Source of the DNA: Tausonia pullulans
Lineage: Eukaryota; Basidiomycota; Tremellomycetes; Cystofilobasidiales; Mrakiaceae
Direction: 5' to 3'
NCBI GenBank assembly: GCA_951802195.1
Contig: OX637632.1
Location: 682,001-746,000 of the forward strand
Length of the DNA stretch: 64,000 bases
Both the position numbers and the translations under genes were made by a program. Positions 34,179 through 38,909 of the stretch are shown here, in pieces (the first letter of the stretch is position 1; each line of letters starts with the position of its first letter). The notes below the pieces were generated by a model that saw only the letters and a program-made list of their open reading frames with translations, did not search any database and was not told the origin of the DNA.

Positions 34179-37100
34179 CTACTGAGCTTTCCGCTTGCGG
34201 GCGCTGCCACCGACGGAAGGGCTGGCAGAAACGGTACTCAAGGTGTCGTCCATTGAGACGTCATCGGCCGTAGAAGCGGCGAGGGAAGTCCGCGTCTTCT
34301 TTTGCGTCAATCCGGCGGGCGTCAACATGGAGGCCGATGCTGGAATGCCGTTGGGCGTTGAGCGGGAGAGGCCGTTGGCCCCAGCGGCACCCCGAGAGGG
34401 AGTCGACAGGGCCACTGGAGTCGTTTTGCCGTTGAGTTTGGTGGTGGAGGGAGGAATTGGAGATGAGGCTGAAAAGGGGAAGCAGGGGCACGTCAACATC
34501 CAAGATCGGAGAAGAACTGAGAAAGGACGGCACGCACAGCTCAAGATATCGCCGAAGAGGCTGGTGAGCTCATCCACATCTGTGTCCGTAACCGGGCGGA
34601 TCTTCCCCGCGTCGGCGTCACCGAGGACCACGACTGCCTCGTCCATATCCATGTCCTCTTCGACAAGGTCGTCAGTCTCCTCAACGGCGCCACGGCGAGC
34701 GAGAAGACTGTCGAGGACCTCGTAAAACACGAGACCCATGCCCGGGAGGACCTGCGCTGGCGCATCGAAGAGGGAGTCGAGGCTCTTCCGCTGGGCCGCG
34801 GCAAGTAGCTCGGGGCGGGCAGCGGCCAGCTGAGGAGGGGTGAATGCAGACGAGGAGTCGCCGAAGATCTCGTCGAAGAGGGTCCGGCTTGTCAAGGTGG
34901 CAGAGAGGTTGAGAGCCTGGGCCGAATCAGCGGCGTAGATCGTTTTCTCAACGCCATCGCCGATGAGAACGACGTCATAATCAACGGTGACAGCCAGGAA
35001 CGAAAGCTGAGTGTGGGACTCGGCCGTCGACGTTGAAGCGTACGAAGAGGTGGGCTCAATGCTGGTGTATGGGACGAAGGAACGGAGGCGGTGAGGAACA
35101 AAGTGTTGCCGCAAAGGGGTGGAGGAGGTGACGGAGAAAATGTGGAAAGCGGTCGAGGCTGTGGGCTGGTACGTCGTCTCAGTGATGGTGAAGAGGGGGG
35201 AAGAGGACGACGGGTCAACCGAGAGGCCGTCAACGGCCCGGTGGTCATCGGACCAGGCGACAGTGCCCTTGAGAAGATCCCAAACAACGACGCCTTTTCT
35301 CTCGCCCGTGCCGACGACCCAACGTCCCTCGCCACCGACGAAAGAAACCCTGGTGATGGGCCGACTGCGAGGCGACGCAAGCGATCCGCGAAGCTCGCTA
35401 GTGATGGGATCCCAGACAGAGACAACAGATCCGTGGGCGAGAGCAAGGAGGGAAGCATCCGGCGCCCAGGCCGAGTCGCGAATGGGGAGTCCGTGATGAG
35501 AGAAGAGGGTGTGGGGCTGGAAGAAGGCTGGCGGACGCACGCAACAAACAGAAACACATCAGCGAATGCTCAACGACCGAAAGGGAGACAGAAAAAGAAG
35601 ATATGCAGAGGAAAGGGTCCCATCAGAATTGCAGAACTATGGGGATCCACATGTATGGATTCAGAAGCCTCGCTGCCCCTTGCGAGACGCGCGGGACAGC
35701 AAAGAAATGTGTTTGGTTTTCATCTTTGGGAGCAGGCACGCGTAGAAGTGGCAGAGGGACACGGCGAAGAGGTTGATACAGAAGAGAGGAGAAGAGATCA
35801 AGAAAGGAAGCTCACCTGTGGATCCGCGAGAGAACGACGAAAGGCGTGCGAGAAAAAGAAAATCAGTACTTGTCACTTTGTAAGAGGGTTCGTAATGAGT
35901 CCGTGAAGGGGAAAATAGAGAATGAGGCTCAGAGATAAAGAAGAAGAGTTGTGTCTACACAGGGGATTTGGACTGTTGAGCTTTTGACCCGAAGGTCGGT
36001 TTGTTCATCAGAGAAGAAAAGTCGCGCTCGAGGCGGAGGCCCTCTAGCGCTATGATTGGAGATTGACAGGCCTGCGAGACCAATCACAACAAGAAAACAA
36101 GGCTCACCTTTAGGTTCCGATCAGGAGAGGATGTGTCAATGAAGCAGTGAAAGGGGGCAGTCAGTCAACCAGGTCTCAAAAGGGAAGTATCGCAACAGGG
36201 TGTAGGCAGTGGCAGGAGATCAGAAATAAAGAAGAAGAGTTTGTGTCTGCAATGTTTTTAAGACTGTTGAGCTTTTGGACCGAGGTCCGTGTTGTTCATC
36301 AGAGTGGAAGAGAAGGCAGATCGAGCGCATGAAGCGTCGACCTTGAGAGGGCCATGGTGGCGAACGCTGAGGGAAACAAATCAGGGTCTCACCTAGACAG
36401 GAAGCAAGGCAAGAAGTAGAGTTAGTGAAGGGTTCATGAGCAGAGGGTAAGAAAGGCGCGATAAAGTGAGGGATCAGAGATAAAGAAGAAGAGTTGGATC
36501 TACACAGGTGATTAAGACTGTTGAGCTTTTGACCCGAAGGCCGGTTTGTTCATCATAAATACGCGACAGCAACCAAGACTTGACCACACAACGCGGGCAA
36601 GTCGTGACGGAGCTTATGACACACGAGAAGCCAGGCAGGGTGCAGGGAACACAAACGCACCTTCAACACGACCAGTCTTGAAGCGAATGCGCTTCTCCTT
36701 CCAGAGACGAGCAGTGCCCTCTTCGCTGGTAGAAAGGAGAAGGAGCGAACCCTGCTTGTCGGTAGGAGCAAGAGTGACAGGGACCGGGGAGAAGCCGAGC
36801 GAGGTGATCCTTGAAGTGTGAGGCTCAGGAAGACGCGTCGTGAGGGAATACGTCTTGGCGTCGGCGTCCCAGCGCCAAACCTTGATGGCACGTTCCTCAA
36901 GACCTCCCTCCTCCTCGTCGGCCTCACGGCTTTCAGCGGTCGCGAGCCACTCGGAACCCTCATCTCGGGAGAGGACGGCGCGGTCGACGTGGGCCGACTC
37001 GATGGGTTTGTCGGCGAAGGCGGATACACGGTTGGAAGGGGCAACCTCAAGCTCGAGAAGAGCGGTTTGAAGGGTAGAGGAGTAAAGCTGGAGGGAGGAA

Positions 37101-38909
37101 GGGTGCGAGGCGGGAAGGAGGAGGGAAGAGGTGGGTCCATGGTAGGCGATGGGGACGTGCTGATTGGACGGTGAGGCAGTAAAAGGCTGGATGCGCGAGC
37201 TCTCGAAGCCACCCTTAATGGTGCGACCGCCGCGACCATCGGCACCGAGCCTCTTGACGCTGCCGTCCTTAAGGCCAGCCCAGATCTCCTCCTCGCGTCC
37301 CTCGGCGGGCGGGCGGACAGCGAGAGCAGATATCTCGCCTCCAACACGAGGGACGAACTCCTTGCCGGACGTGGCAACGCTCCAGATGACAACAACGGCC
37401 TCCTGACCTCCTGAGAGGATAGACGTGCCCGACGAGTTGAAGGCGATGCTGCTGACGGCGTGCGAGTGCCAGTGGAGGGTAGTGGTTGGGGCTGAGCGAT
37501 GACCGGTGATGTCAGTAACTGGGCGCGGGCACTGAGTGCGGTGTAGCAAGACTCACTCTTGCGAAGACCGCCCTGGCTCTTGCTGCTGCCGACAACCTCG
37601 TCCCCCTTGACACCCTCGTCGCTCAGGCAATACCAGAGGCGGACGATACCGCGAACATCTCCCGTAACGAACCAATCCTCGGTCGGGTGGAAAGCGCCAC
37701 AGGTGAGCTCGACGGGGCTGACAAACTTCTTGAAACCGGTCTTGACGCTCGCGAGCCGAAGACAGTACGCCTTGGTGGTGGCGATCGCGACGAGGTAGGA
37801 GCCTGACGGAGAGACCATGAGGCTCGAGGTAGGGCGGATCTTGCCAAGGCGCGCGAAGGGCTTTGAGGCATCCGTGGTGGCCTTGAGCGAGACGCGGTAG
37901 ACGATAGACTGAAGGCCGGCGTGACCGCCTGAGAAGACAGTAAGGAGGTTTAATTAGCTCAACATTCTTCAGGCAGATTTTCTGGACGAGGGTCCATGCA
38001 TGCAAGATGGTGACAGGGGCACGCACCAGTCTTGGTGTCTTTGAAATACGAGGCAGCGGCGAACCAGGTTCCCTTCAGAGGGCCCTCTGTTGCAACCGTG
38101 AGATGAGTGATGGGTCGGCCGATGGTGATCGTCCGGAGAAGGGTCGCGTCGATAAAGTCCCAGATCTTGATCGTCCCGTCAAGGGAGGCCGTCACGAGTT
38201 GAAGAGGGTTCGAAGGGTTGATGAGGAAGGCCGAAATCGCCGCCCGATGCGAGCTGGACGACGTCGGGGAGGAGAGTGTCGAGACAGCCTGAGAGGTGAG
38301 AGCCGAGTGGACACGGATTGACGAGGAGGCAGCGAGGAAAAAGTGGCTGCGGTGGGCAAGAGTCAAGGTCAGCTTCCCAGTGATCTTACAATGCCAGACA
38401 TGAGAGCTGCCGGATAGCAGAGCGGACGGGCAGAAGACTCACGAGGCATCCTTTGAGAAGACCGGAGGAAGTGTCGCAGGAGGGGGGCCGCCGCTGACGA
38501 GTGTTGAGCAACCCCAACGAGGAATACCATCGCGCTCTTCGACCTCGGGCTCAGCCTCCTCGAGGTCCTTGAGCTTGGGGAAATGGCTCGCGGGCCTCTT
38601 AGGCAAACGGCTGTCGCCCTTCTTCATCCGAGGGCGACGCTCTTCGCGCTCCTCGACCTCCGCTGGGGCTGATGCCGATGCCTCGACGATTTCGGCCGCC
38701 TTAAGCGCGCGAGCCTCCTTGCCGAGGAGGACATCAGCCTTCTTCATCCGGGGCTTACGAGGCGTCGAATCAGCAACAGGGGTGTTCGCCGATGTCGACG
38801 CCTCCTCGGCGACCAGGGAAGAGCGACCCTTGCCCTTGGACCTCGTCGTCTTCGGGGCAGCAACAGGCGAAGCCGGCAGCGTCGACGTGGAAGCAATAGG
38901 GCCAGGCAT
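34179..38909 (-). CDS. NAN1: NAN1/UTP17 (WDR75), WD-repeat subunit of the t-UTP complex
   Basis: Exons 38909-38443, 38346-38027, 37928-37557, 37491-36661, 35527-34538 and 34468-34179 give 1089 residues in one frame. The WDR75 landmarks come in order: PPVFSKDASHFFLAASSSIR, QLVTASLDGTIKIWDFIDAT, CGAFHPTEDWFVTGDVRGIV, LHWHSHAVSSIAFNSSGTSI (then LSGGQEAVVVIW), SRDEGSEWLATAE and DASLLALAHGSVVSVWDP, with the C-terminal conserved LLAAAQRKSLDSLFDAPAQV. It forms twin beta-propellers of the t-UTP/UtpA complex that binds nascent pre-rRNA in the nucleolus. The N-terminal 150 residues are basic and disordered, with repeated PRMKKGD/PRMKKAD motifs; the tail SARKRKAQ is basic. Intron 4 (35528-36660) is about ten times longer than the others and carries snoRNA-like units. 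Exon 4 joins directly to exon 5 as RVEAFFQPHTLF. Confidence 0.93.
35925..36016 (-). ncRNA. candidate box C/D snoRNA, copy C (NAN1 intron)
   Basis: Minus strand: C-box core TGATGA at 36010-36005 and D box CTGA at 35932-35929, again 83 nt. The hairpin is GACC-TTCG-GGTC with a UUCG tetraloop. The conserved AAAAGCTCAACAGTC block and CTTCTTCTTTATCT before the D box match copy A; the sequence between them is partly different. Confidence 0.58.
36215..36306 (-). ncRNA. candidate box C/D snoRNA, copy B (NAN1 intron)
   Basis: Minus strand: C-box core TGATGA at 36301-36296 (preceded by C, not the usual purine) and D box CTGA at 36223-36220, again 83 nt. The hairpin is GGAC-CTCG-GTCC: two of its pairs differ from copies A and C, yet pairing is kept. 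The conserved AAAAGCTCAACAGTC block and the CTTCTTCTTTATTT element before the D box are present. The middle (AAAAACATTGCAGACACA) differs from the other copies. Confidence 0.58.
36470..36560 (-). ncRNA. candidate box C/D snoRNA, copy A (NAN1 intron)
   Basis: Minus strand: C box ATGATGA at 36556-36550 and D box CTGA at 36477-36474, 83 nt from one end to the other. Seven nt after the C box is a 4-bp hairpin GGCC-TTCG-GGTC, followed by AAAAGCTCAACAGTC, which is identical in all three copies. The sequence before the D box is CTTCTTCTTTATCT, the place where C/D snoRNAs carry their rRNA guide. Location in an intron of a ribosome-biogenesis gene is typical for such RNAs. I could not name the target. 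Confidence 0.6.

Follow-up and report, generated by a model that had tools for sequence, protein, structure and literature searches.

How are three sister small RNA-like units carried within one fungal gene, and what kind of RNA do they specify? On the minus strand of a 64,000-nucleotide (nt) stretch of Tausonia pullulans DNA (the window), three units resembling box C/D small nucleolar RNAs (snoRNAs) lie between two exons of the UTP17/NAN1 gene. The original prediction placed them in one intron and saw in a hairpin behind box C the possible mark of a distinct subclass. We consider it probable that the locus encodes three paralogous C/D snoRNAs resembling Neurospora crassa CD20, Schizosaccharomyces pombe snR88 and Arabidopsis thaliana snoR58, along with a fourth snoRNA, each in its own intron of a head-to-tail UTP17 array that would be spliced stepwise. 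The argument is built on the boxes, the guide complementarity, the splice-site layout and the back-translated fit with two relatives. These are very probably C/D snoRNAs of a known target type; what is unusual is the carrier, and no new RNA class is called for.

The host encodes a t-UTP ribosome-biogenesis factor, as had been proposed. Joined, its six exons (Table 1) give a frame without internal stops, and the protein matches both WDR75 propeller families in Pfam (5e-37 and 4.6e-25) as well as the human WDR75 chain in the PDB (4.1e-42) and Utp17 chains. The best named match among the 8000 candidates scored is from Mrakia frigida (52% identity), versus 32% for Rhodotorula pacifica and Leucosporidium creatinivorum. 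We take Mrakia to belong to the Cystofilobasidiales (Tremellomycetes) and the other two to be Pucciniomycotina; on these identities, the affinity with Pucciniomycotina implied earlier is unlikely.

Table 1. Features of the UTP17/NAN1 locus, in positions of the window
Feature	Position	Strand	Details
Host gene UTP17/NAN1 (WDR75)	34179..38909	minus	six exons, 1089 aa
UTP17/NAN1 exons 1-3	38909-38443, 38346-38027, 37928-37557	minus	
UTP17/NAN1 exons 4-6	37491-36661, 35527-34538, 34468-34179	minus	
Composite intervening sequence	35528..36660	minus	1133 nt, between exon 4 and exon 5
Four introns as read	36660-36393, 36392-36108, 36107-35816, 35815-35528	minus	268, 285, 292 and 288 nt
AGGTGAG junction 1	36388..36394	minus	acceptor TAG, next donor GTGAGA; branch-point-like CACTAAC (CTAAC 36425-36421)
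AGGTGAG junction 2	36103..36109	minus	acceptor AAG; three YTRAY candidates in last 60 nt, one from 36139
AGGTGAG junction 3	35811..35817	minus	acceptor CAG; branch-point-like TACTGAT, CTGAT from 35866
Predicted C/D snoRNA, unit 1	36474..36556	minus	guide match to LSU; read-through of P0003 and P0079
Parts of unit 1	36556-36550, 36542-36531, 36528-36518, 36477-36474	minus	box C ATGATGA, hairpin, D' guide, box D
Predicted C/D snoRNA, unit 2	36220..36302	minus	hairpin 36288-36277, D' guide 36274-36264
Predicted C/D snoRNA, unit 3	35929..36011	minus	hairpin 35997-35986, D' guide 35983-35973
Fourth, different C/D snoRNA candidate	35623..35726	minus	box C AAGATGA (one mismatch), box D CTGA 35626-35623
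Candidate 5.8S guide of fourth snoRNA, GTTCTGCAATT	35637-35627	minus	pairing to Rfam 5.8S consensus
Terminal stem of fourth snoRNA	35731-35727 with 35622-35618	minus	TCCCA/TGGGA, 5 bp

Rereading and alignment bear out three units, with 83 nt between the outer ends of boxes C and D, which share AAAAGCTCAACAGTC and CTTCTTCTTTAT, the conserved 15-mer included. In all three, 21 nt separate the GATGA of box C from the guide AAGCTCAACAG, and 40 nt lie between the guide and box D (CTGA). Compared with the consensus RUGAUGA, box C reads ATGATGA in unit 1 and CTGATGA in the other two, where C stands in place of R. The C'-like motifs are TGTAGAT, TGCAGAC and TGTAGAC, and box D' is degenerate (CTTA/TTAA in units 1 and 2, CCAA/CAAA in unit 3). 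Dense identity among the copies is confined to the interval between boxes C and D, and the flanks align poorly; diverged flanks around conserved boxes and guide are the pattern left by selection on an RNA, not by a recent DNA repeat. A terminal stem is usual, though not universal, for intronic C/D snoRNAs. None adjoins boxes C and D in units 1–3, whose overall folding energy is no better than that of shuffled sequences. An Rfam search with the units, suggested earlier as a check, returned no match at the gathering threshold; at E up to 10 it gave eight chance-level matches, the highest-scoring being snR56 on unit 2 (19.2 bits, E 7.2). Boxes and guide pairing agree with the earlier description, which placed C/D snoRNA-like units in intronic sequence of a t-UTP gene, and despite the absent terminal stem we file units 1–3 as, very probably, box C/D snoRNAs.

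In domain V of the large subunit (LSU) rRNA, CTGTTGAGCTT (2407–2417 in yeast numbering, set by landmarks) is complementary to the D' guide AAGCTCAACAG along 11 nt. These 11 bp lie upstream of the degenerate D', and a C/D guide is expected to form 10 bp or more ahead of its D or D' box. By the +5 rule, a CTTA box D' would put the target at U2410 and a TTAA box at G2409; since D' is degenerate, also in unit 3 (CCAA/CAAA), the sequence accommodates both nucleotides without deciding between them. The bases U2417, U2421, G2395 and C2392, as named in PMC8536666, agree with the numbering used. Intact rRNA of T. pullulans itself was not found in the assembly, and the LSU comparison used three eukaryotic LSU contigs from bacterial metagenome-assembled genomes, where we regard them as contaminants; two of the three cover the LSU partly. 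These contigs were fetched by a pattern that contains the 11-nt site, so its presence in them is no independent evidence. Outside the site, the longest Watson-Crick matches of the guide in the three contigs are 9, 7 and 6 nt, and in the two contigs scanned for duplex energy (L053 and L054) the site ranks first at −17.8 kcal/mol, the next best places reaching −14.5 and −14.2 kcal/mol.

The predicted site is known from other eukaryotes. In the N. crassa table of PMC2780460, the entries for snR66 and snR78 differ from yeast numbering by 38, and on this offset Um2372, the site of CD20, corresponds to yeast U2410; snR88 and snoR58 are named there as the counterparts of CD20. The plant table in PMC11542601 lists Um2411 and Gm2410 in Arabidopsis, which the offset of 1 converts to yeast U2410 and G2409, and marks Gm2410 as lacking a known snoRNA. 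In these two tables the site has no S. cerevisiae or human counterpart. The name Um2411 in PMC8817022 follows another numbering and denotes a different nucleotide, yeast U2421.

Relatives can be compared through predicted proteins that run past an unspliced donor. Two of these, P0003 and P0079, have frames that enter the orthologous host intron, and we compared the snoRNA by back-translating their peptides; a third read-through protein, P0080, ends ahead of the expected snoRNA. Past the donor, the sole long block common to P0003 and P0079 is RMT(Q/K)(Y/H)SSSTVLITSVDYPLLLFISD, which back-translates to GATGA, the guide, C' TGTAGAT, TCTTCTTT and CTGA in the correct order. The two proteins give SSTVLITSVDYPLLL where unit 1 encodes SSTVLITCVDPTLLL, and the read-through scores 27.6 against unit 1, the best of 60 shuffles per peptide reaching 18.1 and 18.3. 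A second guide fits P0079 249 nt further on (the spacing here is 254), and between its two copies AG/GTATG is possible and AG/GTGAG impossible. Neither read-through can encode the motif RTGATGA; as box C they come closest with AGGATGA at R-M-T, and the second P0079 copy with ATGATNA at M-I-T. The orthologous introns of both relatives thus appear to fit the same snoRNA, that of P0079 in two copies. As the end of P0079 illustrates, predicted proteins running into introns are usable as a source of non-coding RNA sequence.

Searches beyond the locus gave no sign of the interspersed repeat, with copies outside introns, that the original prediction had raised as a counter-case. The guide 11-mer occurs at 23 exact places in the 23.86-Mb genome: the three units, three rRNA-derived places (Rfam identifies L014 and L023, and L018 aligns to these two) and 17 others, where neither inspection by eye nor the corrected covariance model R2 (E up to 5) found a C/D unit. 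The D-guide 17-mer, with at most two mismatches, occurs at nine places, three of them the units. In 28 sources, R2 matches only the three units at E up to 5, and genome-wide the absence of further copies rests on the short-pattern searches. Eighteen viral-contig stretches with the 16-mer were dropped; their best model match (E 0.88, 16.7 bits) came from R1, a model with its structure one column off. The Rfam models of SNORD14 and SNORD24 had no match in the genome, but none in control genomes either, which makes the result uninformative, and a search for an snR78-type guide beside CTGA found none. Separately, diverged LSU and 5.8S rRNA fragments are dispersed in the genome (L014, L018, L023 and L025, on contigs 13, 16 and 8). 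Their pairwise identity is 75–90% where alignable, a stretch of ∼200 nt is common to L018, L023 and L025, and the 26-nt 5.8S core occurs only in the fragment of L025, with three mismatches.

The units are intronic, as first described, but a single intron is doubtful. Within the 1133-nt composite intervening sequence, every gap that separates one snoRNA from the next contains one AG/GTGAG, three in all, with the acceptor AG followed directly by a donor. Markov sequences of matching composition predict 0.014 AGGTGAG strings in 1133 nt, and not one of 5000 held as many as three. Such a comparison is too lenient, as 14 further copies of the string lie on the rest of the window's minus strand; their rate predicts 0.25 (Poisson P 0.002 for three or more). 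The branch-point-like YTRAY, a lax motif with 2–7 occurrences per intron, is present in the last 60 nt of all four intervals versus 287 of 1066 windows. At the protein level, the spliced Mrakia sequence KVQASFQPHTLF (VQASFQPHTLF) runs straight across the position at which the host reads RVEAFFQPHTLF (VEAFFQPHTLF), and this continuity implies that no sequence from between the snoRNAs enters the protein; the spliced homologue P0001 has zero extra residues at the composite intron. The 1133 nt look like four head-to-tail introns separated by three zero-length exons, and since simultaneous splicing at both edges of a zero-length exon is impossible, their removal would require stepwise (recursive) splicing.

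Intron four appears to carry a different C/D snoRNA, a candidate with a 5.8S guide at the human Gm75 site. Up to box D, GTTCTGCAATT pairs with AATTGCAGAATT of the Rfam 5.8S consensus through 10 Watson-Crick pairs, or 12 pairs with one G-U, a pairing equalled by 3 of 2000 shuffles over the 98 consensus letters; against this, one LSU sequence, L054, offers the same guide 10 nt of uninterrupted Watson-Crick pairing. Counting by the +5 rule leads to consensus position 74, which we take to be human Gm75. According to PMC7812721, the predicted guide for human Gm75 is SNORD96A. The terminal stem is matched in quality by 10 of 500 shuffles, and the 14 nt of guide and box D occur once in the genome without mismatch and four more times with one. 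Unlike units 1–3, the candidate has a strong internal hairpin: for the 121-nt stretch 35612–35732, z is −2.0 and 6 of 200 shuffles do as well.

Two other functional readings of units 1–3 deserve weighing, one centered on the hairpin and one on the second guide. The 4-bp hairpins after box C are as claimed (GGCC/GGTC, GGAC/GTCC and GACC/GGTC): all 12 cells hold standard pairs, two of the four pairs have changed on both sides, and two of the three loops are C(UUCG)G. Sliding the structure by 1–3 columns leaves 0–75% of cells paired. If the units formed a distinct C/D subclass with the hairpin by box C as a selected functional element (a protein site, a processing signal or a guide-spacing device), its retention in every copy would be accounted for, and P0003 alone could, by eye, encode a GTCATC-TTCG-GATGAC hairpin at RHLRMT that overlaps the proposed box C. 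The hairpin does co-vary, but with three sequences the same covariation arises in 119 of 500 shuffles, a rate that does not set it beyond chance. The P0003 hairpin is made less likely by P0079, which by eye (FSRMT) cannot encode it. In both relatives R-M-T is the one place that can encode GATGA ahead of the first guide, at a distance of 10 nt that is too short for the hairpin, and the second GATGA of P0079 fits only at Q-M-I, 17 nt before the second guide; the 21 nt found here amount to 9 nt plus a 12-nt hairpin. As far as back-translation tells, then, the hairpin is not conserved in the orthologous NAN1 introns, P0003 being readable otherwise. A snoRNA that fits the relatives without the hairpin and has a target site known from other fungi and plants speaks against a distinct subclass, which we judge unlikely. 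From the shorter gaps in the relatives, the hairpin looks like a later, lineage-specific 12-nt insertion outside the shared snoRNA; its presence in all three copies here, with two units lacking it in P0079, points to concerted evolution or to an array that was re-made. Another reading would make the units placeholders or chaperones on LSU domain V, as is yeast snR190, with both guides on one 25-nt stretch and no methylation. The TCTTCTTT of the D guide can pair over 8 nt (7 nt in L023) with LSU AAAGAAGA, which immediately precedes the D' target on its 5' side, with the complement present in four of five rRNA sequences or fragments, and this part of the LSU overlaps the region bound by box A of snR190 as given in PMC8536666. 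Against this, shuffling the D guide gives an equal match in 152 of 4000 trials (mononucleotide) and in 353 of 4000 (Markov), rates at which the D-guide site beside the D' target is suggestive only, and there is an A-G mismatch at D+4. In L054 the site is only the fourth-best for unit 1 and the third-best for unit 3, and it falls outside the four best for unit 2 in L054 and for every unit in L053. A chaperone role is accordingly improbable.

It is also conceivable that the units are non-functional repeats or pseudogene copies, as their multiplicity might suggest; the conserved boxes and guide amid diverged flanks, the fit of the same unit to the read-through of P0003 and P0079 and the lack of a further copy by pattern in the genome or by model in 28 sources make this very improbable. 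A stronger competitor concerns the carrier: the whole 1133 nt may be removed as one intron, with endonucleases excising the snoRNAs or a single lariat yielding them, and with AG/GTGAG unused or present by chance. The string is short and recurs on the same strand of the window, the acceptor at junction 2 is AAG, and polycistronic endonuclease processing is known in yeasts (PMC5033589, PMC12508059). Yet the junction falls in three of three gaps between snoRNAs where 0.25 would be expected in the whole stretch, the four intervals are near-equal in length with one snoRNA each, and the gene's other introns measure only 65–98 nt. We rate removal as one intron as rather unlikely, and retain the reading of four introns with one snoRNA each.

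On the four-intron reading, UTP17 pre-mRNA, if transcribed through the locus, would carry each snoRNA in its own intron, the introns lying head to tail with zero-length exons. The spliceosome would work stepwise, each splice to an AG rebuilding AG/GTGAG as the next donor, and debranching followed by exonuclease trimming to the box C/D protein core, expected to hold Nop1/fibrillarin, Nop56, Nop58 and Snu13, would free each snoRNA. The D' guide of units 1–3 on LSU 2407–2417 would then direct 2'-O-methylation of U2410 or G2409, and the fourth RNA that of the 5.8S G corresponding to Gm75 in human. The 12-nt hairpin is probably tolerated, as it folds on itself and leaves the guide in place, which suggests more generally that the linker behind box C can accept a folded insert. 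A more ambitious version, in which the four-step recursive array forces an ordered release of LSU and 5.8S guides, couples their dose to Utp17 and has a selected hairpin shape the box C RNP, strikes us as unlikely.

Compared with known snoRNAs, units 1–3 would work like CD20, snR88 and snoR58 in that the predicted LSU target stretch is common, and in the CTTA register the nucleotide is the same; the likeness is by target only. CD20 is intronic and 75 nt long, and guides from box D (PMC2780460); the units here are also intronic, but are 83 nt long and have the guide at box D', and on account of this difference we do not file them as orthologs. They further differ in their three copies, the extra 12-nt hairpin and the UTP17 host. 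Methylation at U2410/G2409, found in plants, N. crassa and S. pombe, is thereby hinted at for a basidiomycete. Yeast snR190 has a box A upstream of D' that is complementary to H73 (G2395) and a box B that binds domain I (PMC8536666). One guide of the units may touch the overlapping LSU stretch 2393–2404; identity with snR190 was rejected by arrangement, the D' guide here pairing at 2407–2417. The fourth snoRNA resembles the SNORD96 type (5.8S Gm75) by its predicted site and by a guide directly before box D, and differs in its length of 104 nt, its strong internal hairpin and its lack of an Rfam match.

For the carrier, the open-access literature matches listed included no recursive snoRNA intron array in a protein-coding fungal gene. 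The locus is thus a compact and testable candidate for recursive splicing in such a gene, with a snoRNA marking each intron, and suggests that copy-number growth of a guide snoRNA may be tied to head-to-tail intron gain. The closest known systems are snoRNA clusters II and III of Candida and Debaryomyces, for which PMC5033589 describes recursive splicing with exons of zero or one base. As proposed for UTP17, snoRNA introns are parted there by zero- or one-base exons; those clusters are non-protein-coding transcripts, whereas the array described here, read from its sequence, places three zero-length junctions in a row within a protein-coding basidiomycete gene.
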